Part shown: positions 3,782 through 46,091 of the stretch, one piece after another | How the letters are laid out: each line of letters begins with the position of its first letter | Position numbering within the stretch: the first letter of the stretch is position 1 | NCBI GenBank assembly: GCA_017561825.1 | Contig: JAFZBK010000059.1 | Coordinates: 1 to 64,000 of the forward strand | Source of the DNA: Prevotella sp. | GTDB taxonomy: Bacteria > Bacteroidota > Bacteroidia > Bacteroidales > Bacteroidaceae | DNA length: 64,000 bases | Direction: 5' to 3' | The notes under the pieces: generated by a model | Database searches by the model: none | The model's input: only the letters and a program-made list of their open reading frames with translations | Told to the model about the DNA's origin: nothing | Translations under genes and position numbers: made by a program

Positions 3782-3915
3782 GATGCGAAAATTTACAATT
3801 TTCTAAATGATAATTTCTAAATGATAAATGATGAAGGTTGCGCATGACAATGACGAACGATGGATGATAAGTTTATCATTTGTCATTTGTTATTTGTCAT
3901 TTAGGGCAAAGCCCG
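3782..3915. repeat. AT-rich repeats between gltB and gltD
   Basis: The spacer contains repeated AAATGATAA and TCATTTGTCATTTG blocks, partly as inverted repeats (AAATGATAA near 3803-3833 against TTATCATTTG near 3871-3888). No gene or promoter is seen. The repeats may form hairpins in the gltBD transcript. Confidence 0.55.
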
Positions 3916-6900
3916 TTAATATTCGCGTTGCATGTCAGCGATCTTGTCGCGGAGTTTCTTCATCTGCTCTTCCTGCAGCACACGCTTATACTCGATAGGA
4001 ACAATCTGGATGAAATCCTCGATGTAGCGGTTCCAGTTGTCAAGCATGGTGCGGGCGAGTTTCGAACCTGTGTAGAGGTAGTGCTGACGAATGAGTTCGT
4101 GCAGTTCTTTGCGTGACACACTGTCTTCCACAAGGTTGATCTCCACCATATCCATATTACAGAAGTAGTCGAAGTTGTGGTTCTTGTCCCATACATAGGC
4201 CACACCACCGCTCATACCGGCAGCGAAGTTACGACCAGTCTCACCGAGCACAACCACACGTCCGCCTGTCATATACTCGCAGCAGTGATCGCCAGCGCCT
4301 TCAAGTACGGCAATGGCACCTGAGTTTCTGACGCCGAAGCGCTCACCAACCTTACCATTGATATAGAGTTCACCGCTGGTGGCGCCATAAAGACCCGTGT
4401 TACCTGCAATGATGTTATCCTCTGCAGCGAAGTTCGCACGTGTAGGTGGAAGGATGGCAATGCGTCCGCCAGAGAGACCTTTGGCGAAGTAGTCGTTGGT
4501 CTCACCCTCGAGTTTGAAGCTGATGCCATGTTCCAGGAAGGCACCGAACGACTGTCCTGCTGAGCCCTTGAACTTCACGTTGATGGTATTGTCGTGCAGA
4601 CCAGCTAGTCCGTATTTCTTGGCGATGACGCCAGAGAGCATGGTACCTACAGCACGATCCGTATTCTTGATGGCATAGTCGAGGTTCACCTCTTCACCCT
4701 TTTCGATAGCCTTTGAAGCAGCCTCGATCATCTGCTGGTCGAGAATGGTTCCCTGCATACCCAGCGGCACAGACGGCTTGTGGGCATCACCTGTAAAGTG
4801 AAGCGTTCCTTCTTCCTTGTTGAGCAGACGTGAGAAGTCGAGAACCGACTCGCGTGTCTCGATGAGGTCGGTACGACCCACGATATCGTTCAGACTCTTG
4901 AAGCCGAGTTCTGCCAGGTATTCGCGCACCTCTTGGGCGAGGAAGGTGAAGTAGTTGACGAGATATTCATAACGTCCCATGAAATGTTTGCGCAACTCGG
5001 GGTTCTGCGTGGCCACACCCATCGGACAAGTATTCAGGTTACACTTACGCATCATGACGCATCCCAATACGATGAGGGCTGCCGTACCGAATCCAAACTC
5101 CTCGGCACCGAGCAAGGCCATGAGTACGATGTCACGACCGGTCTTGATCTGACCATCTACCTGCAGACGGACATTGCTGCGCAATCCGTTGCGGACGAGT
5201 GTCTGCTGTGTCTCGGCAAGACCTATCTCAGGTGAGATACCTGCGAAGCGCATAGAACTGGCAGGAGAAGCACCCGTACCACCTTCAGCACCAGAGATGA
5301 CGATGAGGTCGGCCTTGGCCTTGGCCACACCTGCGGCAATCGTTCCCACACCACTCTCGGCCACCAGTTTCACAGAGATGGCTGCTGTGGGGTTCACATT
5401 CTTTAGGTCGAAGATCAGTTGGGCTAAGTCCTCTATACTATAGATATCATGATGAGGTGGTGGCGAGATCAGCGAAATGCCGGGGATGGAGTGACGCGTC
5501 TTGGCAATCACCTCATTGACCTTGAAGCCAGGAAGTTGTCCACCCTCACCAGGCTTTGCACCCTGTGCCACCTTGATCTGTATCTCTTCGGCATTGACCA
5601 GATATTCCGTTGTCACGCCAAAACGACCAGAGGCAACCTGCTTGGTCTTGCTCGACAGTGAGATGCCGTCGAAGGTGGCGTGGAAACGCTCGGAGTCTTC
5701 ACCGCCCTCACCTGTGTTTGAGCGGGCTCCCAGTTTGTTCATGGCCAGACAGATGGCCTCATGAGCCTCTTTGGAAAGCGCACCAAACGACATGGCACCA
5801 GCCACGAAGTGCTTCACGATGTTCTCAACAGGCTCTACCTCGTCGATAGGGATAGGAGACCCACCCCCTTGCCCCTCCCTGTGAGGGAGGGAAGTAGATA
5901 CCTTTTTGAAACCGAGGAAGTCACGTAGGAAGATGGGCGATTCCTTCTCATCCACTAACTTCGACCATTGCTTAAACTTTTCGTATGAACCAGTTCGGCA
6001 TGCCAGTTGCAGCGTGGCAATGGTTTCCGGGTTCCATGCATGTTTGATACCATCCTTCCGCCAGTGGAACTGACCGAGGTTGGGTAAAAATGTTGTGTCT
6101 GTGTTGTTATGGGCAAAGGCTGCCTGATGCATGGCTATGGCATCAGCGGCGATCTTCTCCAGACCAATACCGCCGATGGTACTTATCTCTGTGCCGAAGT
6201 AAGTCTTCAGCAGACTCTCACTGAGTCCGATACTCTCAAAGATCTTCGCACCGCGATAGGAGCGGATGGTAGAGATACCCATCTTGGCCATGATCTTGAA
6301 CAGACCTTTCTTAACGGCCTTGATGTAGTTGGCTTCCGCGGTGGCATAGTCCTCTTGGATCTTATGACGCTTCACGAGGTCGTCCAAGATGGCAAACGTC
6401 ATGTAAGGACACAGTGCCGAAGCACCATAGCCTAACAGCAGGGCTGCATGCATGGTCTCGCGAATTTCACCGCTTTCCACGATCAGTGCCGTCTGCACAC
6501 GCTTACCTACGGAAATCAGGTAATGATGCACAGCGCTCACAGCCAGCAGTGATGGGATATAGAAAGACCCAGCATCATCAATCTTATCTGTCAGAATAAT
6601 ATAGTTATATCCTTCATCTACTGCCTGTTCTGCATCCTTACATAACTTATCAAGAGCTGTGCGCAAGTCCTCTCCGGCTTGAGTGTAATCACTCCCCTCC
6701 TTCTTAGGGAGGGGCTGGGGGGAGAGTCTGAATGTCATCGGCAGTTTAATGGTATTGAATCCCTTGTAGCGGATATTACAAAGGATATCCAGCTGGGTGT
6801 TGTTCAGAATAGGATGGGGCAGACGAACCATCTTACAGTTGGTCTCATCGGGGTTGAGGATGCCAGAACCCACACGACCGATATATTCCGTAAGACTCAT

Positions 6901-34589: not shown

Positions 34590-37500
34590 TTATTTCACAA
34601 CGACTTTCTTTCCATTCACAATATAAATACCGCGAGGTAGAATGCTATTATTGTTACCCTTCTTAACTAACTGACCGTTTATATTATATATGGGGCTGGT
34701 AACAGCCTCTTTCTCGCTGATTAATTCCATAGCTGTTGTTATATCTTGTGGCGTTACTTCCCTTTCAATGATGTTCTTAAACACATTCCACCCCTCAGTC
34801 ACCTCATACAGTTCCTTTGTGCCAATAGGGACATAAAGAGGAATTTCCGAGGTGTTATCACCACTCCAGACATTATGATCAATTGGGAATGGTTCTGCTA
34901 TATATGAAACCACTTCGGTCAAACTACTGCATCCTTGAAATGAAGCCCAACTGCCCAAAAAACTCACACTTTGGGGAATTGACACTGATGTCAGACCACT
35001 ACAATTATAAAATGCTAGCCCACAGATACTAACCAAAGATTGGGACATCTGAATAGAACTCAAGGCTTTACTGTTATAAAAAGAAGCATAACCAATAACG
35101 GTAACACTATTAGGCATGGCTATGGATAATAGATTGTTACATGAATAAAAAGCAGTCTCACTTATATATATAACCCCTTCAGGTATTGTATAATACTCAT
35201 CGGTTTTTGCCCTCGGATAGTATAATAGCTTTGTTCCTTTTTTGTTGAGCAGGACTCCTGAAATGGATTTGTAATAATCATTGTCAGAGTTAACATCTAT
35301 ACTTGACAACTTATTACAAGAAGTAATACCATATAGATCAAAAGAAACAACAGATTTGGGAACCTTAATGGATACGAGATTATTACAACTAGAAAAGGCT
35401 CCTCCTGCTATACCTTTTACACCATCTTCAATCTCGATAGTTGTTTCTGAACAGGCTGCTCCTTTAAATCCATATATAACCCTACCAGCATATATAACAC
35501 CATCAGGCTGATTATCAAGCCATGGAGTTCCCTTAAATGCACAACTCCCTATAGACACAACGCTGCTTGGTATTGATATGGAATTCAGGTTACTACAGCC
35601 ATCGAAGGCATTACCACCAATTCTTTTTAAACTACTGGGTAAAGATATGGACGATAGTCCTGAACAATTCATAAATGCTCTATTAGCTATGCCTAAAGTG
35701 CCCTCTTTCAGTTCTATGGTTGTATTAGGAGGCATCTCTCCCTTATATCTGAATACAACATTACCTGCAAAGACTATTCCTTCCGGCAAGTTTTCAACCC
35801 AAGGGGTATTATAAAACGCATCAGATGAAACAATAGATTCCAAACCATCAGGAAAACAAATCAAAGTGAGTCTTTGGCATGCAAAAAAGACAAACTCTTC
35901 CATCTGTGTGATTGTTTTTGGCAATGTAATAGAGATCAAACTTGTACATCCCATAAAAAGGCTATTGGGTAAAGAATATGGATCTTCAATCAGACATGAA
36001 CAGTTGATGCCATGGCTATGGGATCCATAATTATCTTGCCATCGAACAAAATTAGCATTCAAGAATGGTTCACCTCCATCCTTCAGTTTAACATTGGATA
36101 AATCTAAAACTCTAAGCCTTCCTTCTGTAGGTTCTCCCTTGTCATTGTTGCCTGTCATATCCCTTAGAAGGCGGAAATCAGCACCATTGAGTTCACCCGA
36201 CAAGGTCAATTCTTCGATTTCATATTTTTCAGTATCTGATATGTAATCTTTTAGAGTTCCTGCTACCTCGACATGGATTGTAGCATGCTTGGCTGTGTAT
36301 CTCTCAACAATATTTGTAAATTTATTCCAACAACTCATCGTCTGTAACAAACTCTTTGTCGCATAAGGAACGGATAAAGTCGCGTTGGAGTAGGTTTCTG
36401 GAGAGAAGATGTCTGAAGTGGGATATGGCAAATCTATCTCGGAATATACTATTTGAAGACCTGTGCATCCAACGAAAGCAGATACACCAATACCTTTCAC
36501 ACTGCGAGGAATGGTTATTGAGGATAAACCGCTACACCCCTCAAATGCATAGCTACCAATGTGCATCACAGAGTTAGAAATAGAAACAGATGTTAATGCG
36601 CTGCAGCCTTTAAAAGCATAATTACCAATACTCGTCACAGAGTTGGGAATTGCAATAGAGGTCAAACCACTTTCTCTGAAAGCATTATTGTCGATGAAGG
36701 TTACTGAATTGGGAATAGTAATTGATTCCAAACGGCAACATCCCTTAAAAGCACCGCTATAAATACTTGTTAAACTGTTGGGTAAAGATATACTGGTAAG
36801 ACTTGTACAATCAGCAAAGACATCATAGCCAATGATTCTTGTCCCCTCCTTGATTGAATAATTTACCAAGCTTTTGTCAACTACCGCCACAGCATAAGTA
36901 TCAGCATATCTAATACCATTCTCAATAGGTAAAGAAGAACAACCATAGAATGCACTCTTCCCGATGGAGGTAACTGAATTGGGAATAGAGATAGAGCTCA
37001 AATTGGTACATCCTTGAAATGCATAACTACCGATACTTGTCACAGAGTTGGGAATGGTGATAGAGGTCAAACCTGTGCATACACAGAAAGCATCATATCC
37101 GATGTCTGTCACAGTATTGGGTATTATGGTATTCTTGCAGCCAAATAACAATTCATTATACTCTGTCTGGATAATAGCATTACAATTATCTCTCGAATCA
37201 AAAACTCTATTGCCAGGATCAACACTAATTGAAGCCAAACTGGTGCAGCAAGCGAAGGCTGTTTTTGAGATGCTGGTAACAGAACAGGGAATGATAATAG
37301 AGAGTAAACTTTCACAATAATTGAAAGCACAATTCCCTATATATGTCACTGTAGAGGGGATGGAAACATTGGCCAAACCGCTGCATGCATGGAAAGCATA
37401 ATCTCCGATTCCCTTCACTCTGTATTCTTTCCCTTTCCATTCAACAAAATCTGGAATAACGACATTTCCTTTATAATCGACGCCAATTTCTACTTCAACC

Positions 37501-38024
37501 GTCTGTTCTTCCGCTGACGTGATATGATAGTTGATACCTTCAACATAAAAGCCATCTCCCTGTTCATGGACAATAAATTTTCCCCACGCACCTGTACATT
37601 GATATGTGTCCTTAGTACCTATAGGAACAAAAAGCAATATCTTGCTGGTGTCCAAACCTTGCAATGCTTCTTTATTAATTGGGAAAGGTTCTGTGATCAA
37701 TGAAACCACTTCAGTCAAACGGCGACAACCATAGAATGCGTTATTCCCGATACTGGTTATAGAATTGGGAATGGTAACCGACATTAAATCGTAGCAGTTC
37801 TTGAAGGCATTCTCTCCAATTCCTGTCACATCGTATTCTATGCCATTCCACTCAACCTTATCAGGAATAACGACATCCCCTTCATAAGAGATTCCACTAG
37901 TAACTTCTACTGTTTGCTCTTCTATTGACGTAATAGTATAGTTGATGTTGTCAACGGTAAAGTCTGCTGCCAGTGCTGTTAAGGAGCAAAGGCACATAAC
38001 TAGAAAAGACAAACCCTTTTTCAT
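34590..38024 (-). CDS. BspA-like leucine-rich-repeat surface protein (long)
   Basis: The 1144-residue protein has a signal peptide (MKKGLSFLVMCLCSLTALAA). Many 23-residue LRR_5 units follow, of the type LTSITIPNSVTSIGxxAFxGCS, in two blocks (about residues 55-570 and 680-1080). Between and around them are loop segments such as EIPLYVPIGTKELYEVTEGW (20 residues). It ends in YNINGQLVKKG and GIYIVNGKKVVVK, resembling C-terminal domains of proteins sent to the surface. BspA-like proteins often bind host proteins or other bacteria. The start at 38024 fits the signal peptide; a 12-codon extension to 38060 is possible. A shorter paralogue lies just upstream. Confidence 0.87.
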   Translation of the reverse strand: MKKGLSFLVMCLCSLTALAADFTVDNINYTITSIEEQTVEVTSGISYEGDVVIPDKVEWNGIEYDVTGIGENAFKNCYDLMSVTIPNSITSIGNNAFYGCRRLTEVVSLITEPFPINKEALQGLDTSKILLFVPIGTKDTYQCTGAWGKFIVHEQGDGFYVEGINYHITSAEEQTVEVEIGVDYKGNVVIPDFVEWKGKEYRVKGIGDYAFHACSGLANVSIPSTVTYIGNCAFNYCESLLSIIIPCSVTSISKTAFACCTSLASISVDPGNRVFDSRDNCNAIIQTEYNELLFGCKNTIIPNTVTDIGYDAFCVCTGLTSITIPNSVTSIGSYAFQGCTNLSSISIPNSVTSIGKSAFYGCSSLPIENGIRYADTYAVAVVDKSLVNYSIKEGTRIIGYDVFADCTSLTSISLPNSLTSIYSGAFKGCCRLESITIPNSVTFIDNNAFRESGLTSIAIPNSVTSIGNYAFKGCSALTSVSISNSVMHIGSYAFEGCSGLSSITIPRSVKGIGVSAFVGCTGLQIVYSEIDLPYPTSDIFSPETYSNATLSVPYATKSLLQTMSCWNKFTNIVERYTAKHATIHVEVAGTLKDYISDTEKYEIEELTLSGELNGADFRLLRDMTGNNDKGEPTEGRLRVLDLSNVKLKDGGEPFLNANFVRWQDNYGSHSHGINCSCLIEDPYSLPNSLFMGCTSLISITLPKTITQMEEFVFFACQRLTLICFPDGLESIVSSDAFYNTPWVENLPEGIVFAGNVVFRYKGEMPPNTTIELKEGTLGIANRAFMNCSGLSSISLPSSLKRIGGNAFDGCSNLNSISIPSSVVSIGSCAFKGTPWLDNQPDGVIYAGRVIYGFKGAACSETTIEIEDGVKGIAGGAFSSCNNLVSIKVPKSVVSFDLYGITSCNKLSSIDVNSDNDYYKSISGVLLNKKGTKLLYYPRAKTDEYYTIPEGVIYISETAFYSCNNLLSIAMPNSVTVIGYASFYNSKALSSIQMSQSLVSICGLAFYNCSGLTSVSIPQSVSFLGSWASFQGCSSLTEVVSYIAEPFPIDHNVWSGDNTSEIPLYVPIGTKELYEVTEGWNVFKNIIEREVTPQDITTAMELISEKEAVTSPIYNINGQLVKKGNNNSILPRGIYIVNGKKVVVK

Positions 38025-38084
38025 ATTATTCTTTTTTATCAAGGATCTCTTATTATTCATTACTTTGGTCTGTAGGATTAGTAT

Positions 38085-40211
38085 TTATTTCACAACGACT
38101 TTCTTGCCGTTCATGATGTATATATTACCCTTCTGGGGTGTTGCAACGCGCTGACCGTTCAGGTTATAGATGGGAGAGGTAACAAGCTCCTCTTCGTTAG
38201 CTATATCCATAACCGTTGTAATATCTTGCTTGCTCCACTCAATACCATATATCTTCAGAGCATTATCTGCTGCTGATTTAGCACCCATCGCCTTTGCATT
38301 AGCAGTTGTCTTCTCACCGCCATAGATATATACATAACTCGGCTCAGAGACAGCATAGGGCACGGTTACCTCCAGTTTCCCACTGAACACCATTTCCACA
38401 GGCTGACCGTTGCCGACCTTCACCTTCAATGTCATGTTTCCGGTTGTCTCAGCGTTAACTTTCACAGTGCCACTTCCCTGTTGAACCATAAAGATGATTC
38501 CTGTGTAGTTGTTCTTTACATCCTCTCCGAACAAGTCTAAACCAACCATGTTATCAACTTGTTCATCCGATGTTGTTTTTCTCAGGACAATGCAACCTTC
38601 AGCAGAACTATATTCTCCATTACCATCAGAAATGTTGTAGAAGATATTACCAACTACGTTTCCGTTCAGATCCGTATCCTGGTTTATATCTGGATTGTTG
38701 GCATAGTCCACACCACCGTCATCTCCAGCAACCGAAATACCTCTTTCTATGATATTCGTAAACACATTCCACCCCTCAGTTGCCTCATACAGTTCTTTTG
38801 TGCCAACAGGAACATAAAGAGGTATCTCACTGGTGTTTACCCCATACCAAATACTCTGAGTAGCATTAGTTGGGAACGGGTCTGAAACTAATGATATAAC
38901 TTCAGTCAAACCACTACAATTCCTGAAAGCATCGTTTTCGATACTAGTTACAGAGTTGGGAATGGAAATTGAGGTTAAGCCATTGCAACCAGAAAAAGCA
39001 GCAAATCCAATGCTCGTCACGGTATTGGGAATAATAGTATTCTTGCAGCCATCTATCAATTCATTTTTCTCTGTTTCGATAATGGCATTACTATTATCTC
39101 TCGAGTCATATACAGTATTGCCATCCTCTACAATCATTGAGATCAAACCACTACATCTTGAAAAAACACTACTTCCAATACTCGTAACAGAATTGGGAAT
39201 AGTAATTGAGGTCAAGCCACTGCAACCAGAAAAAGCCGAACCTCCAATATTCGTCACAGAGTAGGGAATCGTCACAGATGTCAAGCCTCTGCAGCCACAA
39301 AAAGCATACTCTTCTATGCTTGTCAAAGAGTTGGGAATGGTAACAGAGGTTAAGCCACTACAATTCATAAAAACAAAACGCCCAATGCTCGTCACAGAGT
39401 TGGGTATTGTAATAGAGGTCAAGCCACTGCATTCATAAAAAGCCTGCTCTTCTATGCTTGTCACAGAATTGGGGATGGAGATTGAGGTCAAGCCACTGCA
39501 GTACCAAAAAGCCTGAAATCCTATGCTTGTCACAGAATTGGGAATTTTGGTGTTCATACAGCCCTGTAACAGTTTGTTTGTTTCTGTCTCAATAATGGCA
39601 TTACAATTAACTCTTGAATCATATACGGTATTACCATTCTCAACAATAATTGAGGTCAAGCCACTGCAACCAGAAAAAGGTTCTCCTTCGATACTTGTCA
39701 CAGAGTTGGGGATGGTAATTGAGGTCAAACTACTACAATTTGTGAAAGCCCACCGCTCAATACTCGTCACAGAGTTGGGAATAGTAATGGATGTTAAACC
39801 TTTGCACTCCTTAAATGCAAAATGACCTATGCTTGTCACAGAGTTAGGAATATCTACAGAAGTCAAACTACTACAACTATAGAAAGCATACCACCCAATA
39901 CTCGTCACTCTGTATTCGTTACCATTCCATTCAACTTTATCAGGAATAACGACATCACCTTGATAAGAGATTCCACTAGTAACTTCTACTGTCAATTTTT
40001 CAGAAGACGTAATATTATAGTTGATCTCGTCAACAGTAAAGTCAGCAGCCAGTACTGTCAATGAACTAAGGCATACTAACATAAAAGACATAAGCCTTTT
40101 CAAAACAAGACAAGGGCCGCTCGCGGTTCCCAACCCCGATCTGCTAAACTGAGCAAACGTTGTTGCAATGCAGCATAGGAACAATACTGCTAGAGTTAAT
40201 ATTCGTTTCAT
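38085..40211 (-). CDS. BspA-like leucine-rich-repeat surface protein with chimeric N-terminus
   Basis: The 708-residue protein shares its body with the 34590 gene (ADFTVDEINYNITSSEKLTV, LRR_5 units to about residue 450). It also has a unique C-terminal domain with SAEGCIVLRKTTSDEQVDNM and VYIYGGEKTTANAKAMGAKS, and it ends YNLNGQRVATPQKGN, IYIMNGKKVVVK. The N-terminus carries two signal-like segments: MKRILTLAVLFLCCIATTFA with QFSRSGLGTASG, then LKRLMSFMLVCLSSLTVLAA. The second equals the signal peptide of the paralogue. The first resembles leaders of FSGSGSGT-type surface proteins, so the 5' end looks recombined. A TTG at the second segment could still serve as an alternative start. Confidence 0.85.
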   Translation of the reverse strand: MKRILTLAVLFLCCIATTFAQFSRSGLGTASGPCLVLKRLMSFMLVCLSSLTVLAADFTVDEINYNITSSEKLTVEVTSGISYQGDVVIPDKVEWNGNEYRVTSIGWYAFYSCSSLTSVDIPNSVTSIGHFAFKECKGLTSITIPNSVTSIERWAFTNCSSLTSITIPNSVTSIEGEPFSGCSGLTSIIVENGNTVYDSRVNCNAIIETETNKLLQGCMNTKIPNSVTSIGFQAFWYCSGLTSISIPNSVTSIEEQAFYECSGLTSITIPNSVTSIGRFVFMNCSGLTSVTIPNSLTSIEEYAFCGCRGLTSVTIPYSVTNIGGSAFSGCSGLTSITIPNSVTSIGSSVFSRCSGLISMIVEDGNTVYDSRDNSNAIIETEKNELIDGCKNTIIPNTVTSIGFAAFSGCNGLTSISIPNSVTSIENDAFRNCSGLTEVISLVSDPFPTNATQSIWYGVNTSEIPLYVPVGTKELYEATEGWNVFTNIIERGISVAGDDGGVDYANNPDINQDTDLNGNVVGNIFYNISDGNGEYSSAEGCIVLRKTTSDEQVDNMVGLDLFGEDVKNNYTGIIFMVQQGSGTVKVNAETTGNMTLKVKVGNGQPVEMVFSGKLEVTVPYAVSEPSYVYIYGGEKTTANAKAMGAKSAADNALKIYGIEWSKQDITTVMDIANEEELVTSPIYNLNGQRVATPQKGNIYIMNGKKVVVK

Positions 40212-40218
40212 TGTACTA

Positions 40219-40455
40219 TTATGATTCTGGTTCGTTTCTGCGAGTTATAATTATTCCTAGATCGTTACAGACTTTTTCAAATGTATCCCACAAATCCTTC
40301 TCTAACATCAGTTTGTACGTACTCTGATGTATTATTTTAAAGTCTTCATCAAGTTTACTATCTTTTATCTGATTTATAATAAACTCAATATTATCATAAC
40401 TAACACCATTTTGTACTAACTTTTCTCTTAATTTAGGAACATCTTTTATATACAT
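40219..40455 (-). CDS. Hypothetical 78-residue protein upstream of the BspA-like gene
   Basis: The product (MYIKDVPKLREKLVQNGVSY, then DNIEFIINQIKDSKLDEDFK) is charged, with no signal peptide or known motif. It ends 7 bp before the BspA-like start on the same strand, so cotranscription is likely. Coding status is moderately supported by length and spacing. Function is unknown. Confidence 0.5.
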   Translation of the reverse strand: MYIKDVPKLREKLVQNGVSYDNIEFIINQIKDSKLDEDFKIIHQSTYKLMLEKDLWDTFEKVCNDLGIIITRRNEPES

Positions 40456-40803
40456 AATCTAATCCTCTTGCCTAACAAACACCCCAAACTTGGCAGTTAA
40501 TTCTTTGTTTTCTAGGTTAGCTTATGATACAAAAAAGGCGTAGGTGTCTGTTTCTGCCCATCCTGGAATCGTAGGCTCTCGCATTGCCCTCATCACACAG
40601 GATAGACAACGCAGTTAGCCCACGCCAGTACGGACTATATAAATTTGGTATATAGAAACGCACTACGGGACGCTTCGTTGTCATCTGTCTGCTGTGATGA
40701 TAGGAATTTGCGAGATTCACGATTCACAACGACAGACGTTCGAAAACGTCTTTCTTATATATAAGATCGCTCACTTCACCCATAAGGGATTGTAAGTGAT
40801 GTT
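40456..40803 (-). other. Long leader with a 67-codon frame and hairpin
   Basis: This 350-bp stretch separates a promoter at 40804-40835 from the 40455 gene. It holds one open frame (40517-40720, minus) with an internal Met giving MTTKRPVVRFYIPNLYSPYW, and a perfect hairpin GACGTT-CGAA-AACGTC near 40733-40748. It could be a regulatory leader or a dispersed repeat. I do not call the frame a gene. Confidence 0.4.
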
Positions 40804-40835
40804 GCAAAGATAAGTATTATTTTGCAAACTTCCAA
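40804..40835 (-). promoter_or_regulatory. Promoter upstream of the BspA-like operon leader
   Basis: On the minus strand, TTTG (40835-40832) and TATCTTTG (40811-40804) lie 20 bp apart. Transcription would run through the leader toward 40455 and the BspA-like genes. Confidence 0.6.
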
Positions 40836-41000
40836 ACGCGAACCGTATTTTTTTAGCAATAATATAGAATTTCATTGTTCCTTGGCCATTTCTCTTATTT
40901 GTCTGATTTACATTTATTTCGGGGGTGGACCCCCCAAAAAAGAAAAATGGAAGAAGTGGTGCAACCATTTCTTCCATTTAGCAGAGATTATCTTTTTATC

Positions 41001-41492
41001 CTATTTGTTCTCTTGAAACATTGCTATTTCTGTATCGAATAGATTCGTAATCTCATCGAATAGTGGATGGGAACGCTGGATGATGAGCGCTATATAACTC
41101 TCAATTCCTTCATCTTGAAGCACCGCAGTACGTATGGCATATTTCTTTTGTTGCTCATAGCCATTAAACCAACGCAAGAAAAGACGAGCTCGCATAGCTT
41201 GTTGCTCGTCAGCCGTATCACACATATAAAGAAGTATATCAGGATTCTGATAGAAGAACTCTTCAATAATGGCGATGACTGTTTTACGAACTTTAGGATC
41301 GTTGGGAGATGCTCTGTGGCTTCGATTGGAAAGGTCGAACCAATATGCGGTTAACCCTGGTATTCCATCGTATGTTTGAAAACTAACAGCATAAAGAATG
41401 TCACTATCTGTTCTGAAAAGATACTCATCACCTTCCTGAACAATAGTGTAAGGGGAGGACAATTGAAGTCGTGAAGTATCAAGTGCTTTCAT
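41001..41492 (-). CDS. DUF6169-like protein
   Basis: The 163-residue protein has SSPYTIVQEGDEYLFRTDSD near the start, IIEEFFYQNPDILLYMCDTA, and QQAMRARLFLRWFNGYEQQK. That pattern fits a Bacteroidetes family of unknown function (DUF6169), with the DxxxxxRxRLFxxWF signature. No signal peptide is present. It is encoded directly after a 52-residue coiled-coil gene, with a 3-bp gap. Such pairs in accessory regions suggest a two-gene module of defence or toxin-antitoxin type. That is speculative. Confidence 0.72.
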   Translation of the reverse strand: MKALDTSRLQLSSPYTIVQEGDEYLFRTDSDILYAVSFQTYDGIPGLTAYWFDLSNRSHRASPNDPKVRKTVIAIIEEFFYQNPDILLYMCDTADEQQAMRARLFLRWFNGYEQQKKYAIRTAVLQDEGIESYIALIIQRSHPLFDEITNLFDTEIAMFQENK

Positions 41493-41495
41493 TGT

Positions 41496-41654
41496 TTATG
41501 CAAGTTCATAGTAGTGTGAAGCCTTGATTCTACGAATCTCTTCCTCCTTTTCGTCAAGTTTCTTGTTAATACGTTCTTGCCACTCGCGTTTTTGTTGCCT
41601 GTATTCGCGAATGGACTGCAAGAAACGTTCTTTATCAAAATCGATTTTTGCCAT
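41496..41654 (-). CDS. Tiny charged coiled-coil protein paired with the DUF6169-like gene
   Basis: The 52-codon gene encodes MAKIDFDKERFLQSIREYRQ, QKREWQERINKKLDEKEEEI, RRIKASHYYELA. It is strongly charged with helix-forming heptads. It has its own promoter at 41676-41707, and its stop codon lies 3 bp before the next ATG. No family is recognised. Confidence 0.68.
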   Translation of the reverse strand: MAKIDFDKERFLQSIREYRQQKREWQERINKKLDEKEEEIRRIKASHYYELA

Positions 41655-41675
41655 AATTCACTTTCTTGTACGCTG

Positions 41676-41707
41676 CAAAGATAGGAACTTTTATTGAAAC
41701 TTCCAAA
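41676..41707 (-). promoter_or_regulatory. Promoter of the DUF6169-like pair
   Basis: On the minus strand, TTTG (41707-41704) and TATCTTTG (41683-41676) have a 20-bp gap, and the ATG is about 22 nt downstream. Confidence 0.65.
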
Positions 41708-41879
41708 TAAAATGTAGGGATAGATTCAATGATACGGAAAATTCTTTCAGTTCAGCAGTCTGGGTCAATCCCATGCAATGCGAACATAGGTATTGGCGCC
41801 TGAAAGCATAGATATCGCGATGCGAAACCTGAGGTGTACTGATTTCGGTTGACAAAATTTGGATACACAAAACTGGCGC
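41708..41879. other. Left part of gene-free region
   Basis: I see no supported gene. The sequence leads from the DUF6169-like promoter into the AACATACAC repeats. Confidence 0.6.
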
Positions 41880-41997
41880 AACATACACGTATTTCGCTGG
41901 AAACGCCTTTATATACGAGGGAAATGGGTGTTTTCAACATACACGGAACATACACCAACGTTCACTATAGCCCCTATAACATACACGCAACATACAC
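41880..41997. repeat. Five AACATACAC 9-mers, direct
   Basis: Exact copies start at 41880, 41936, 41947, 41978 and 41989. The pairs 41936/41947 and 41978/41989 are spaced exactly 11 bp, one helical turn. The reverse complement recurs five times on the other side of the 22-bp array. Confidence 0.9.
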
Positions 41998-42000
41998 TGC

Positions 42001-42102
42001 TAAGTAGGCTACTTGCGCATAGAAACTATGGCACTTTCTCATAGAAAGTAGGCTGATTACCACCTCTAACTAGGCCACTTACTTATAGCAACTAGGCTTC
42101 TT
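42001..42102. repeat. 22-bp-period iteron-like array, five units
   Basis: Units start at 42001, 42023, 42045, 42067 and 42089: TAAGTAGGCTACTT, AAACTATGGCACTT, AAAGTAGGCTGATT, TAACTAGGCCACTT, CAACTAGGCTTCTT. Each is followed by 8 variable bases. The second unit equals the repeat at 78-91 and 122-135. Confidence 0.88.
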
Positions 42103-42110
42103 ACTCGATA

Positions 42111-42170
42111 TTCCCACGTTGGGAACGTTTTATTCCCACGTTGGGAACGTTTTATTCCCACGTTGGGAAC
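42111..42170. repeat. Three TTCCCACGTTGGGAA palindromes in the same 22-bp phase
   Basis: Units start at 42111, 42133 and 42155. The first begins exactly 22 bp after the last iteron-like unit at 42089, so eight units share one phase. Each is a perfect palindrome followed by CGTTTTA (truncated in the third). Confidence 0.93.
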
Positions 42171-42192
42171 AAAACTCGTTTATGAAGCTCGC

Positions 42193-42310
42193 GTGTATGT
42201 TGCGTGTATGTTGATTCCCGTATAGTGTATGTTTGTGAACCTTTAGTGTATGTTGTTTTTTATACAAATCCCTTTATTTATCGTGCTTATCGGCATTTTC
42301 CGTGTATGTT
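42193..42310. repeat. Five GTGTATGTT 9-mers, inverted
   Basis: Exact copies start at 42193, 42204, 42225, 42246 and 42302. The first two are 11 bp apart. They are the reverse complement of the AACATACAC copies at 41880-41997. Confidence 0.9.
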
Positions 42311-42355
42311 CGCGCGTTTTTCATTAATTCTTTTCACAAGGGGTTCTGCGTTTTT

Positions 42356-42595
42356 AACCCACCAACCCACCTAATGTGCCTGAAACGCCCATAAACACAA
42401 GGAAAAATGACAGGTGGGTTGGATGCTTTCAACCCACCTTTAACCCACCTGTTTTGTCATTTTGTGTTAAGGATCTGATGAATTTCTGATGAGCGATGAG
42501 GGGGATTAGAGGTGGATTGGAGGTGGGTTAAACAGTGTCAACCCACCTCGCTGAAACGCTTTACACATCGATGTTTCAAGTGTATTAGGTGGGTT
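42356..42595. repeat. AACCCACCT / AGGTGGGTT 9-mers in both orientations
   Basis: Direct copies are at 42356 (8 of 9), 42364, 42431, 42442 and 42540. Inverted copies are at 42412, 42510 (AGGTGGATT), 42521 and 42587. Two pairs, 42431/42442 and 42510/42521, again show 11-bp spacing. The 9-mer is related in form to AACATACAC. Confidence 0.88.
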
Positions 42596-42688
42596 GGGGG
42601 GTGAAACGCAGAATAAGTATCTCCGCAGCGCATAATCATGCGCTAAAATGAATACATATCCAAGGCGTGTCGATCGCTTGGAGAGAAA

Positions 42689-42744
42689 ACGTCGCTCACT
42701 GGGAGAGAGTGACGTTCCCACTACCTACAAATGACGTTCTCACT
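42689..42744. repeat. Second 22-bp array, ACGTTCnCACT cores
   Basis: ACGTCGCTCACT (42689), ACGTTCCCACT (42712) and ACGTTCTCACT (42734) are spaced 23 and 22 bp. ACGTTCCCA is the reverse complement of TGGGAACGT within the palindrome units at 42111-42154. Confidence 0.75.
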
Positions 42745-42901
42745 CCAAGCCCGTTTTTGCGAATGCATAAGTATGCAAAACCATAGATTGACAATTTAAA
42801 CAAATGAAATTGTTTTGTATTATGCTTGCATAATGTATAATAATCTTCACGCTCGAGTAAACAAATCCATTTGTTTCCTTCTCACTTAATCAGATTTTTA
42901 G
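42745..42901. other. Right part of gene-free region
   Basis: AT-rich sequence without a supported gene leads to the next promoter. Confidence 0.5.
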
Positions 42902-42909
42902 TATCTTTG
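42902..42909 (+). promoter_or_regulatory. -7 box of the 42918 gene
   Basis: TATCTTTG stands only 8 bp before the ATG at 42918. Either the transcript is nearly leaderless or a later start is used. Confidence 0.45.
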
Positions 42910-42917
42910 CCAGCAAT

Positions 42918-43685
42918 ATGAAAAGGAAGCAAAGGATGATTATAGGAGTGGTGGTTATTGGAATGATGATCAGCTCCTGCCACTCACATTATGTGATGAG
43001 TGGGATTGAACGTAACAGAATTCTGGTGGATCAGCGGTATGATGCGCTGACTGATGGTCAGGCTGAGGCTCTGATGACTCCCTATAAGCATGTGGTGGAC
43101 AGCATGATGTCGCCTGTTGTAGGTGAGGTGGCTCGTTATATGGCAGCCCATCGCCCAGAGAGTGAGTTGTCGAACTTGTTGGCCGACATTCTGGTATGGG
43201 CAGGGAAGAAATATAACGAGGAGCCTGTTTTCGGCGTGTATAACATGGGCGGTATCCGTGCCGCACTCGCCAAGGGTAAGGTTACCTATGGTGATGTGCT
43301 GGATGTGGCACCGTTTGAGAACAAGATCGCCTTCCTGACGCTGCGTGGTGACAAGGTGTTGGAGCTGTTCCGACAGATGGCTATGACAGGTGGTGAGGCG
43401 GTGAGTCATGGTGTGCAGCTGGTGTTTACGAACGATCATCAGTTGAAGTCGGCCAAGCTCAACGGCGAGGAAATCGATCCTGCTGCCTCTTATCGTATCG
43501 CTTCCATCGACTACGTGATTCAGGGGAATGACAAGATGGAGGCGTTCAAGGCCAAGACTGATGTGAACTCACCTCAGGAGGAGTCGAACAACCTGCGCTA
43601 CATCATCATGGATTATTTCCGTGAGCAGATGAAGCAGGGGAAGGTGGTTGACCGCGAGGTGGAAGGAAGAATTGTAATAGAGTAA
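42918..43685 (+). CDS. 5'-nucleotidase C-terminal-domain lipoprotein
   Basis: The 255-residue protein has a lipoprotein signal (IIGVVVIGMMISSCHSH). It corresponds to the substrate-binding C-terminal domain of UshA-like 5'-nucleotidases: ESELSNLLADILVWAGKKYN (20 residues), FGVYNMGGIRAALAKGKVTY (20 residues) and NKIAFLTLRGDKVLELFRQM (20 residues). The metallophosphatase half is absent and is encoded by the gene at 44044. The two together would rebuild a whole enzyme, probably as a surface or periplasmic complex releasing phosphate from nucleotides. Confidence 0.88.
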   Translation: MKRKQRMIIGVVVIGMMISSCHSHYVMSGIERNRILVDQRYDALTDGQAEALMTPYKHVVDSMMSPVVGEVARYMAAHRPESELSNLLADILVWAGKKYNEEPVFGVYNMGGIRAALAKGKVTYGDVLDVAPFENKIAFLTLRGDKVLELFRQMAMTGGEAVSHGVQLVFTNDHQLKSAKLNGEEIDPAASYRIASIDYVIQGNDKMEAFKAKTDVNSPQEESNNLRYIIMDYFREQMKQGKVVDREVEGRIVIE

Positions 43686-43688
43686 GGA

Positions 43689-43722
43689 AGCCCCTCCCTG
43701 ACCCTCCCCCGTAGGGAGGGAA
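43689..43722. repeat. G-rich palindromic element, variant
   Basis: GCCCCTCCCTGACCCTCC followed by CCCGTAGGGAGGG. It lies directly after the stop codon at 43685. The loop is longer than in other copies. Confidence 0.6.
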
Positions 43723-44043
43723 CGACGGTACGAAGGTACGGAGGTGCGAGAGTAGTTTTCGAGTAAGGAGGAAAGAGGTCAAAGGGACTCGGTCAAAGGT
43801 CAAAGGGATTCGGTCAAAGGACGAAGCAAGCCGAAAAGAGATAACGCCAGGGCTTTGATGCCCTGAGCGTACCTTAATGTACGAGCGACGAGTAGGAGCG
43901 GTTGAGCCTCCCCATATAGGGGGAGGACGGAAGGGGGTGGATGTCTCTTTTGCTCTTTTCTCTGCGCCAGAGAAAAAGAGGGGAAGAAAGGTTTCTTTTC
44001 TCTGCGCCAGAGAAAAAGAGGATAAAAAAAGAAGAATTGAAGA
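43723..44043. repeat. Repeat-filled gap between the two nucleotidase genes
   Basis: The 320-bp gap contains short ACGAAGGTACGGAGG-type and GGTCAAAGGGA-type repeats, a G-rich palindrome with AGGGGGTGGATGTCT tail (43906-43946), and two 28-bp direct repeats at 43954-43981 and 43994-44021. Each direct repeat forms a TTTTCTCTG/CAGAGAAAA hairpin. No gene is seen. Confidence 0.7.
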
Positions 44044-44907
44044 ATGATGAATAAGATGAAAAGAATATTTAGAGAAATAGCGATGGTCGCTATGCTCTCT
44101 TTACTGTCACTGACAGCGTCAGGACAGAAAAAGCAGTTGGTGATCCTGCATACCAACGATACACATAGTACAATCTATCCGCTGAATCCCAATCTCGCCG
44201 ATACAGCATTGGCGGGTAGGGGAGGGTTCATCCGAAGGATAGCCATGATTCGCGAGGAGCGGAAGAAGCATCCCGACCTGCTGCTGTTCGACAGTGGTGA
44301 CTTCAGTCAGGGCTCACCCTATTTCACTTTGTATAAAGGCGATGTGGAGGTGGCGCTGATGAACCGCATGGGGTATGATGCGGGGGCCATTGGGAACCAT
44401 GAGTTCGACTTCGGCCTGGAGAACATGGCACGACTGTTCCGTAATCTGAACTTCCCCATTCTGTGCTCGAACTATGACTTCGCAGGAACGCCAGTGGAAG
44501 GAACGGTTAAGGATTACCTGATTCTGAAGCGCAACGGACTGAAGATCGGGGTGTTCGGCTTATCACCCAAGCTTGAAGGACTGGTGGCTGCTGAAAACTG
44601 TCAAGGGGTAAAGTACCTTGATCCGATTACTGAAGCCCAGCGGGTGGTGAACATCTTGAAGAAGAAAAAGTGTGATGTGATTATCTGTATATCCCATTTG
44701 GGATGGTCGGTATTGAATACCGTGGATGATCAGCATCTGATTCCTGCTACCAACGGCATCGACCTCGTATTGGGCGGTCATTCACATACGTATTTCGAAA
44801 CACTGCAGTATGTGAAGAACCTCGATGGCAAAGAGATACCTGTTGACCAAAACGGAAAACATGCTCTCTACGTTGGAAAGATGATCTTGGATTTTAAGAA
44901 GAAGTGA
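44044..44907 (+). CDS. 5'-nucleotidase N-terminal (metallophosphatase) domain protein
   Basis: The 287-residue exported protein has a signal peptide (about residues 5-26, ending SASGQ-like TASGQ) and the calcineurin-like metal site: LVILHTNDTHSTI, LLFDSGDFSQGSPYF, GNHEFDFG, CISHLGWS and DLVLGGHSHTYFE. It lacks the C-terminal substrate-binding domain, which is the preceding gene. Start could be 44044 or 44047. A G-rich hairpin with a T-run follows and probably ends transcription. Confidence 0.9.
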   Translation: MMNKMKRIFREIAMVAMLSLLSLTASGQKKQLVILHTNDTHSTIYPLNPNLADTALAGRGGFIRRIAMIREERKKHPDLLLFDSGDFSQGSPYFTLYKGDVEVALMNRMGYDAGAIGNHEFDFGLENMARLFRNLNFPILCSNYDFAGTPVEGTVKDYLILKRNGLKIGVFGLSPKLEGLVAAENCQGVKYLDPITEAQRVVNILKKKKCDVIICISHLGWSVLNTVDDQHLIPATNGIDLVLGGHSHTYFETLQYVKNLDGKEIPVDQNGKHALYVGKMILDFKKK

Positions 44908-44908
44908 G

Positions 44909-44945
44909 CCACCCCCAGCCCCTCCATAAGGAGGGGAGTTTTTTA
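44909..44945 (+). terminator. G-rich palindromic element acting as terminator
   Basis: CCCCTCC-ATAA-GGAGGGG followed by AGTTTTTT. The flanking CCACCCCCAG shows it is a member of the dispersed palindromic family. Here it has the form of an intrinsic terminator between convergent genes. Confidence 0.75.
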
Positions 44946-45689
44946 TTCGAAGTAGAAGGTGAGGGCCACGAACTTGGTGCGGGTATGATCGGCCTTCACA
45001 CTATTCGTGTAGATCAGCAAGTTCTTGTCCTTGATATCCTTGGCATGGTTGGCATCAAGGGCATTCATTAGACTGTAACCGAATTTCAGTTCCGGACGGA
45101 GCTTGAAGAACGGCAGGTAGAAATCACAGCCAAGACCTAACTCCAAGTAGCAGTCGAATCCTTTCAGACGAATGAGGTCTTCGTTCTTACCCGATAGGTT
45201 CATCATCGGGTTCACACCAGCCATGACATAAGGACGATGGTTGTTGAAACGCTTGGCGCTGAAGATCAGGTCGCAGGCGGAAGAGATATAAACGGATTTC
45301 ATCTCCTGCTGCATCTTAATGGGTGTACCGTCCTCCAACTTGTCGGTGTGGTTCAGGAATGTAAGATGACGGGTGCCGAAGTACATGGCTGGGGCCACGC
45401 GGAATGCGAAGTATGTTCCTAAGCGTGCCTCACCCAACACACCCACCGTGAAGCCTGCATCCCAGCGGTCCTGATCACAGGTAACCAACTTCTCCACAGT
45501 GGTGCCATCCTCATTGGTGATGAACTGCGGTCCTACATTCTGTAACTCCAGATCCTGTAGGTGCGTACCGACAAGCACGCCAAAATGGAATGGTCGCAAG
45601 TCCATGTAGGGCTTGTTCTGAACCGTCCGCTCCTGAGCTCCCACTCCTAAGCAGACTGTCATGATGAGGAAGAAAACTATCTTTCGCAT
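44943..45689 (-). CDS. porT: PorT-family outer-membrane beta-barrel protein
   Basis: The 248-residue protein has a signal peptide (MRKIVFFLIMTVCLGVGAQ). Conserved segments follow: YMDLRPFHFGVLVGTHLQDL (20 residues), AKRFNNHRPYVMAGVNPMMN (20 residues), and YLELGLGCDFYLPFFKLRPE (20 residues). It ends in a beta strand, FVALTFYFE. These fit PorT, a barrel needed for type IX secretion in Porphyromonas gingivalis. The BspA-like proteins in this window may be cargo, which is inference. Confidence 0.82.
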   Translation of the reverse strand: MRKIVFFLIMTVCLGVGAQERTVQNKPYMDLRPFHFGVLVGTHLQDLELQNVGPQFITNEDGTTVEKLVTCDQDRWDAGFTVGVLGEARLGTYFAFRVAPAMYFGTRHLTFLNHTDKLEDGTPIKMQQEMKSVYISSACDLIFSAKRFNNHRPYVMAGVNPMMNLSGKNEDLIRLKGFDCYLELGLGCDFYLPFFKLRPELKFGYSLMNALDANHAKDIKDKNLLIYTNSVKADHTRTKFVALTFYFE

Positions 45690-45837
45690 GTGTGAATAAT
45701 AACGTTGAAAACGACAGGATATTGTGAAACAGCAGATGTTTTGTTGTTTTATGTATTACGTATCCCCTTTTTTGTGAATTAAAGTTAATCGCCCGCAAAA
45801 TCCATACCTAGATATAGGTATATTCGAAAATAATCTA

Positions 45838-45845
45838 TATCTTTG
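45838..45845 (+). promoter_or_regulatory. -7 box of the ferredoxin gene
   Basis: TATCTTTG, 76 nt before the ATG. The 45690-45837 stretch has no gene that I can support. Confidence 0.55.
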
Positions 45846-45920
45846 CACCGACATAAAAAGCTGTGTCTTTGATGCAGCAAAGAATGTGATAACAATAGTA
45901 TTAACGAATAAAACAACATT

Positions 45921-46091
45921 ATGGCTTACGTAATTGGCGAAGATTGTATCGCATGTGGTACATGTATCGATGAATGTCCGGTAGGAGCTATCTCTGAGGG
46001 CGAACGTTATTCAATTGATGCTGATGCTTGCACTGAGTGCGGCACATGTGCAGGTGTTTGTCCTTCTGAGGCAATCACGCTGCCTGAGTAA
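45921..46091 (+). CDS. 2[4Fe-4S] ferredoxin
   Basis: The 56-residue protein has two classic clusters: CIACGTCIDECP (residues 9-20) and CTECGTCAGVCP (37-48). It is a clostridial-type low-potential electron carrier. It is monocistronic, with a promoter upstream and a strong terminator directly downstream. Partner enzymes cannot be told from context. Confidence 0.96.
   Translation: MAYVIGEDCIACGTCIDECPVGAISEGERYSIDADACTECGTCAGVCPSEAITLPE

Follow-up and report, generated by a model that had tools for sequence, protein, structure and literature searches.

The window, by which we mean the whole 64-kb stretch of contig JAFZBK010000059.1 that was analysed, contains eight repeat units held in one common 22-bp phase. 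We propose, with a probability of roughly 60%, that this array is a gene-less copy of the origin- or operator-like region of a mobile element that carries a VapE-type (SF3-like AAA+) helicase. The gene for this helicase, which may or may not include a BT4734-like primase domain, is probably the most constant one of the element. The anatomy of the regions, with phased dyads, AT-rich linkers, inverted 11-bp repeats and an adjacent helicase-primase gene, resembles that of the SaPI Rep iteron origins and thus argues for a combined origin and operator. From the sequence data we infer that the arrays are bound and that these regions are replicated and transposed; a function as operator only is possible. 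The features of the locus, in window coordinates, are the following:

41496 to 41654, minus strand: plausible 52-aa ORF to the left of the composite and outside the element
41868 to 42321, no strand assigned: whole composite, a gene-less copy with inverted arms AAAACTGGCGCAACATACACG.../...CGTGTATGTTCGCGCG; bounds set by eye, based on an alignment of 12 copies (from the source genome, G000, and from G195) and a DNA search of eight genomes
41880 to 41997, minus strand: left 11-bp-type repeats AACATACAC, the reverse complement of GTGTATGTT
42001 to 42104, plus strand: five degenerate 22-bp units NAACTAGGCNACTT, from direct reading of the sequence and a lag-identity test
42111 to 42169, plus strand: three perfect TTCCCA-CGT-TGGGAA dyads in 22-bp phase, from direct reading and genome-wide pattern searches
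42193 to 42310, plus strand: right 11-bp-type repeats GTGTATGTT, inverted with respect to the left set
42353 to 42606, no strand assigned: second repeat block AACCCACC/GGTGGGTT in 11-bp steps with inverted arms
42918 to 43685, plus strand: right neighbour ORF of 255 aa with orthologues in G110 and G195

Direct reading confirmed the eight units and their common register, with the degenerate units starting at 42001, 42023, 42045, 42067 and 42089 and the TTCCCACGTTGGGAA dyads at 42111, 42133 and 42155. The degenerate block alone showed a self-identity of 39/66 at lag 22 and of 8-24/66 at the other lags between 15 and 33; in the rest of the window (outside 41851-42250), lag 22 gave a mean of 16.2 (sd 3.7) and a maximum of 37. 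The original prediction regarded the two repeat types as unrelated. This does not hold for their structure, since the degenerate units, of which the first reads AAGTA-GGC-TACTT, are dyads around a 3-bp centre just as the TTCCCA units are, and both therefore share a common geometry. In G110, a long VapE gene is preceded by a unit similar to the degenerate ones (L286). The stretch had also been described as gene-free, which is nearly correct; between the ORFs at 41001-41492 (minus strand) and 42918-43685 (plus strand) lies the plausible 52-aa ORF, and none of the other ORFs there exceeds 71 aa. Within 38001-46000 of the window, neither VapE nor DUF6078 was matched. The flanking inverted 11-bp repeats and the block at 42353-42606 had not been part of the earlier description. 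This block recurs beside two other arrays (L015 and L037), and a helicase of its own was not found. Further to the left, at 34590-40211, two adjacent long ORFs are built of 'LTSITIPNSVTSIG'-type leucine-rich repeats, which we take to be BspA-like. The orthologues of the right neighbour ORF in G110 and G195 have a TTCCCA array upstream (two and three units, respectively); in G110, a further coding stretch separates array and ORF. Where the source genome has the window composite, both of these genomes carry an array accompanied by GTTAGGT repeats, which are of the type that precedes short VapE genes.

The array had been treated as a single locus, but the source genome holds 32 of them. A search of its 2.98 Mb for TTCCCACGTTGGGAA with at most one mismatch gave 45 and 44 matches on the two strands, and the reversed-pattern control gave 0 and 1. 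The unit TTCCCA-N3-TGGGAA consists of 6-3-6 bp and a 7-bp spacer, mostly Y-A-W-W-W-T-R, which together make 22 bp. Counted as exact pairs 22 bp apart, the 32 arrays (11 with two units, 16 with three, four with four and one with five) are found among 36 sites, namely the window and 35 more, and account for all 59 exact pairs of the genome; a single degenerate match in a long ORF (L014) and the single-unit sites L015, L019 and L027 were left out. The idea that the spacing itself is maintained was borne out: when the gap was left free over 0-30 bp, at least 87 pairs were obtained on one strand in five of six genomes, and all matches listed were 37 bp long and thus in 22-bp phase. Both unit types keep this register, with 76 of 77 AACTAGGC units at 20 loci in phase with the TTCCCA units. 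This includes L012, L032 and L335, where the AACTAGGC units are reversed relative to the remainder and the junctions therefore differ. Chance repetition was rejected, as runs of three dyads in the examined DNA of the source genome numbered 35 at lag 22, and no other lag between 16 and 59 gave more than five. The lead of lag 22 was less clear in the samples from G053, G066 and G098, with 9, 10 and 7 pairs against at most 6 at lags 18 and 21.

The arrays of the source genome end sharply, since the next position outward resembles random sequence: of 64 such positions, three carry a single mismatch and all others at least five. Repeats flank half of the 32 arrays within 400 bp, eight with GTTAGGT repeats (the short-VapE type) and eight with GTGTATGTT repeats (the long-VapE type), both counts including the VapE loci themselves; the other 16 arrays are bare. 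Among 458 random windows, GTTAGGT repeats were present in two and GTGTATGTT repeats in none. At the 32 of the 36 sites where both neighbouring genes were called, these were tandem in 18, convergent in eight and divergent in six. A hairpin-like repeat of about 70 bp (GGATTTCATCCCACCTTTTCTCGCC...GGCTTAACGAAAA), whole or partial, abuts the arrays at L029, L032, L034, L036, L039, L040 and L206; at L206 it sits between the stop codon and the array, and L025 has no such repeat there. At two unrelated places, L022 and L035, the array lies between inverted TGTGTCAAAATAAGGTTCA-like copies, as if inside another palindromic element.

The composite of the window runs from 11-bp repeats through the AACTAGGC array and the TTCCCA array to inverted 11-bp repeats. 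In the sister species G195, the same composite directly precedes the start of a long VapE gene (L220; VapE at 2593-4797 on the minus strand, array at 4968-5070). In the source genome, the composite is followed by the first 6-10 VapE codons, read by eye, at the contig ends L018 and L031; tblastn retrieved no VapE there, as both contigs stop after these few codons and are too short. Two further contig ends, L282 and L283, hold C-terminal VapE halves that are 95-96% identical to the VapE of L220, and we infer that the two kinds of contig ends belong together. Besides the window, gene-less composites were present at L011, L032, L033, L037 and L043 of the source genome and at L331-L333 and L335 of G195, where the examined DNA matched neither VapE nor DUF6078. 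By eye, the composites are bounded by inverted arms and thus have terminal inverted repeats; the bare arrays have no arms.

Comparisons between genomes suggested that these regions may move as a whole. The loci L341 (G195) and L182 (G110) share 97% identity that starts at the first palindrome, while their left flanks are unrelated; L124 shares its left flank with G195. When G110 is compared with two relatives, the module of array, VapE and DUF6078 shows an identity of 95-97%. The homology comprises these three parts only and, in the comparison with L124, ends past the downstream hairpin. That it begins at the first palindrome while the left flanks differ indicates that either the module moved or its surroundings were replaced, with the breakpoint at the array. 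The G110 arrays L191 and L198 have matching sites in the source genome without an array (29 and 11 bp as against 167 and 138 bp in G110). No clear target duplication was seen at either site, and the extra DNA in G110 exceeds the length of the array. The G110 site that matches the composite L332 of G195 holds a bare array. A clean empty site was found neither there nor at the CobB linker described below.

We clustered the 1236 ORFs located within 4 kb of an exact pair. The original prediction had asked for gene families that co-occur with the array, and VapE formed the largest cluster, with 17 loci, of which 15 have the array within 400 bp. By eye, the remaining clusters with many array-near members resemble single orthologous genes. 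The protein matches the VapE-like helicase family PF05272 (E 7.4e-36); long forms additionally match BT4734-like_N (PF08800) and some DUF3874. The domains matched were PF05272, PF08800 and PF12990. A PrimPol model matches the N-domain of VapE, the PHROGs matches are DNA helicases and primases, and NCBIfam had no model for the protein. Among solved structures, sequence comparison yielded a single relative, PDB 7pds (listed as 'Similar to D. nodosus vapE'), at an E-value of 6.5e-15 with a 12-member profile; we take it to be a SaPI Rep. Together, the PF05272 and 7pds matches identify a helicase homologous to the SaPI-type Rep/VapE initiators. A DUF6078 protein accompanies several of the VapE genes.

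Since the 17 VapE loci had been chosen by their array, we also asked the converse, namely which VapE upstream regions carry an array. Six genomes contained 32 VapE matches (1-8 per genome), from which four at contig edges and one in G040 were left out. Among the remaining 27 upstream regions, 16 carried a 22-bp array (at least 28/44 identity) and 11 did not; without the four TTCCCA cases the count was 12 of 23. In control upstream regions, from which carriers of TTCCCA dyads were excluded, it was 4 of 320. In the first 16 VapE upstream regions, lag 22 passed in 10, lag 44 in six, lag 32 in one and no other lag between 15 and 44 in any. In the full set of 27, three TTCCCA loci also passed at lag 23. 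The array sequences vary (AAACGCT-GGG-AGCGTTT, GAACTTAAGTCGGAAG, AGAAAGTGGCCTTATAACTATG and others), and since some of the 16 positive regions are orthologues or near-identical copies, they reduce to about six sequence types. The helicase gene is thus commonly adjoined by a repeat array whose sequence differs between VapE paralogues, and this array lies upstream, not downstream, at roughly 100-550 bp from the VapE start, a position that fits an operator as well as an origin. The 11-bp repeats passed in 4 of 16 VapE upstream regions compared to 5 of 320 controls. The type of dyad seems to go with the VapE gene: GTCCCA-type variant arms precede a close short VapE in G053 and in G066, and G066 also has exact TTCCCA pairs. 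Another VapE, in G098, has a CGGACT-N3-AGTCCG array upstream, of which solo copies occur in G053, in G066 (in CobB) and in G098.

The link was also visible across the genus. Genomes with a close short VapE (E <1e-150) had arrays in 44 of 72 cases, compared to 21 of the 227 others (Fisher 3e-18, genomes being counted irrespective of phylogeny). The other 28 of the 72 had no exact TTCCCA pair, and the two of these that we inspected (G053 and G098) both had drifted arrays. Conversely, 18 of the 65 array-bearing genomes, including G211, which is listed as 100% complete, gave no short-VapE match below 1e-100, the short form being the one surveyed. As for the readings offered by the original prediction, an origin is the best of them, given that genes for VapE-type helicases are preceded by regions of this kind; a regulatory hub for the neighbouring genes is not supported by the position of the arrays.

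The arrays are not confined to a single genome, an outcome that would have weighed against the original prediction. In a first set of 40 genomes, pairs with one mismatch allowed were present in 6 of 24 genomes of the genus and in 0 of 16 from other families of the same order. Exact pairs were present in 65 of 299 genomes of the genus, with no control match, and in 24 of the 130 genus genomes with a completeness of 90% or more and a contamination of 5% or less. Among the public matches listed, named entries were mostly MAGs labelled Prevotella or Prevotellaceae, many of them from the rumen, with the isolates Prevotella ruminicola KHT3, Xylanibacter ruminicola Ga6B6 and Prevotella sp. ne3005; a few had broader labels, and one MAG contig was labelled Clostridiales. 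Five viral contigs bear an array, and no VapE match was found in the DNA examined from them. In four related ones (L176, L177, L179 and L180), an array of two or three units lies in frame within an 83-aa ORF.

Synteny was partial: 8 of the 12 examined arrays of G195 have a G110 array at the same place, and the two G110 arrays mentioned above are absent from the source genome. In the seven clearly matching arrays of G000 and G110, the arms were intact in all 17 aligned units, which is in part ascertainment because the arms belonged to the search pattern; the triplets matched at 34/51 and the spacers at 54/70 positions in the best register. Excluded from these seven were a moved module (L013/L182), an empty site (L040/L198) and two loose matches (L029/L190 and the window/L201), and the full set of 11 pairs gave 39/84 for the triplets and 75/119 for the spacers. 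The seven-pair figures weaken the argument from conservation, on which the main case does not rest. Unit number varies between close species, with three versus five at L205/L215. The persistence of spacing under sequence drift was recovered, as other dyads at homologous positions stay in the 22-bp phase.

This drift was best seen inside genes. We examined 28 of the 63 listed ORFs with arrays, each of at least 300 aa, and in 25 of them the array was well inside the ORF (22 with three units, two with two and one with four). A three-unit array is 66 bp and thus 22 codons long, making these genes candidates for in-frame insertion; several are orthologous, and L062 and L108 represent one sequence, so that not all insertions are independent. 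Judging by the look of their sequences, CobB, an RsmF-like methylase, TolC and a large hydrolase-like enzyme are among them. In the linker of CobB, the TTCCCA array is perfect in G018 and G041 and nearly perfect in G272; G053 has three identical GTCCCA-GGG-AGGGAA units there, and G066 has units of another dyad. The large enzyme of G098 contains three TTCCCA-GGG-AGGGAA units that do not differ from one another, and no recognisable TTCCCA units were found at this site in L348 and L349. These comparisons show that position, phase and unit number can outlast the sequence of the dyad. At L227 (G053) and L344 (G098), all three units share an identical off-consensus dyad, which points to concerted change of the units within an array. 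A dyad scan of the source-genome DNA for runs of three other than TTCCCA returned none at the stringency used, below which the degenerate AACTAGGC units fall. The dyads AAACGCT, AACTTAAGT and AAGTGGCC were found only at VapE loci and as isolated matches at L194 and L286, in DNA that had been chosen around TTCCCA arrays; the other dyad type that was found dispersed is the CGGACT family.

Dyads with a 3-bp centre in fixed register are typical repressor sites, and the arrays could be operators through which VapE, or a repressor linked to or acting on the element, controls VapE transcription, with the scattered copies serving as host regulatory sites or decoys under selection. The distance of the arrays from the VapE starts and the intact arms in the seven G000/G110 pairs, at more variable triplets and spacers, are in agreement with this. 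We nevertheless consider it unlikely, as the scattered copies show no promoter preference: eight lie between convergent genes, some right at two stop codons (L025 and L041), and others are inside ORFs. Moreover, operators leave the inverted 11-bp flanks and the movement of whole modules unexplained. A regulatory site for the neighbouring genes themselves was rejected on the unbiased orientation of those genes. In favour of chromosome-structuring sites, such as matS or the Noc and SlmA sites, the genomes with the most arrays have about 30 of them each, distributed among numerous contigs; two or three units are the usual array size, and many arrays are retained between G195 and G110. That a host nucleoid protein binds the arrays and VapE elements merely adopted them is, in our view, very improbable, given the patchy distribution in the genus with few arrays in many genomes, the different dyads at one site in different species, the G110 arrays missing at matching sites of the source genome, and the arrays within ORFs and on viral contigs.

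A purely selfish palindromic repeat of the REP/BIME or MITE kind, spread by a transposase that escaped our searches and without function for the host or VapE, would account for dispersed, intergenic and in-frame copies, for their variable presence at matching sites between species and for the inverted terminal arms of the composite. We hold this to be decidedly unlikely, since VapE forms the largest ORF cluster beside the arrays, and the outward units in the source genome have either one mismatch or at least five; among the named loci, intermediate units with 2-4 mismatches were somewhat commoner (17/218). The single Y1_Tnp match of the genome is not flanked by array repeats, as its 3.3-kb locus contains no TTCCCA, AACTAGGC or GTGTATGTT repeat, and for a MITE no cognate transposase was identified. 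This RAYT-like Y1 transposase (L055, contig G000:C34; 344 aa) has a DGRDENSSA motif at the end of its ORF and in the neighbouring ORF, which suggests that it is flanked by repeats of its own, unrelated to the arrays. An RNA hairpin or terminator was rejected because the arm changes in G053 and G098 break base pairs identically in three units, so that protein half-sites fit better than RNA pairing. A CRISPR was likewise dismissed (the spacer is 7 bp and rule-bound, as opposed to unique spacers of about 30 bp), as was an Rfam family, with two matches in 40000-44000, neither of which reached the gathering score or coincided with the array.

Returning to the origin region of a VapE element, we suggest the following mechanism. 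The 22-bp unit, RTTCCCA-NNN-TGGGAAY with an AT-rich AWWWT linker, spans two helical turns, and an oligomeric initiator, for which VapE itself is the simplest candidate, would place one of its dimeric halves on each unit. Through their fixed phase the units would be aligned on one face of the DNA, allowing helicase rings to assemble at a point flanked by the inverted 11-bp repeats. VapE would then open the DNA and copy or mobilise the region. Scattered copies may have arisen when the region was copied or recombined in trans, and could stay intact as long as the binding protein is present.

More tentatively, the arrays might form a genome-wide system of parasitic origins, in which the 22-bp, 6-3-6 geometry is fixed in the VapE family and the base sequence of the dyad changes in concert. 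Every paralogue of VapE would then have its own dyad, carried by the scattered copies of that genome, and one chromosomal site, even the CobB linker, would hold TTCCCA, GTCCCA or CGGACT depending on the species. If so, production of the matching helicase would cause the scattered arrays, as non-autonomous origins, to fire, be copied or recombine. Chromosomes would hold dozens of dormant, sequence-coded sites of secondary initiation or insertion, some of them tolerated as 22-residue inserts in enzymes. VapE genes, of which many Prevotella genomes have several copies, are usually annotated merely as virulence-associated or unknown, and the link to the arrays offers a testable site for each VapE paralogue. 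The arrays represent a class of dispersed repeats that is tied to a replication helicase rather than a transposase, occurs in frame within genes and has a spacing that outlives its sequence. Origin activity, if true, would explain the spread of gene-less repeats and provide tools for DNA replication in rumen Prevotella.

In the open-licence literature, searched by titles and abstract openings, we found no account of these arrays or of their link to VapE. Plasmid iteron origins consist of direct repeats of about 20-22 bp in helical phase beside an initiator gene; the Prevotella arrays differ in being chromosomal and dispersed, in their dyad units and in the SF3-like helicase type of the initiator. 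REP/BIME repeats are palindromes scattered through a genome and associated with a low-copy gene that has the same palindrome on its flanks. The arrays are alike in combining dispersed palindromes with a linked gene, which here encodes a helicase and not an HUH transposase; their units differ in being tandem and 22-bp phased, and the RAYT-like gene of the genome is unrelated to them. The Rickettsia palindromic elements are repeats inserted in frame within coding genes, a feature in common with the arrays, which are tandems of usually three short dyads associated with a replication gene.

Compared by description, the closest case in the literature is PINSR, a 188-bp, high-copy, non-coding intergenic repeat of Prevotella intermedia and Prevotella nigrescens with largely conserved positions, whose origin is left unexplained in the available excerpt (PMC4755523). 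It is likewise restricted to a Prevotella clade, but has a 188-bp unit without terminal inverted repeats. PF05272 is a predicted helicase of mobile-element replication and the BT4734-like domain a recognised primase family; in the excerpted account of fusions between archaeo-eukaryotic primases and VirE, a cognate DNA site is not described (PMC5862659). The SaPI and SCC elements, with self-loading Rep/Cch helicases and iteron origins, resemble the Prevotella regions in that a VapE-type helicase related to 7pds adjoins short phased repeats. SaPI Rep recognises iterons beside its own gene through its C-terminal domain, apparently as two hexamers, and the origin lies downstream of rep, as far as the excerpt of that source relates (PMC7581432). 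In Prevotella, by contrast, the array lies upstream of VapE and its unit is a 22-bp dyad, and gene-less scattered copies and insertions within coding genes, which the same excerpt does not describe (PMC7581432), are present.
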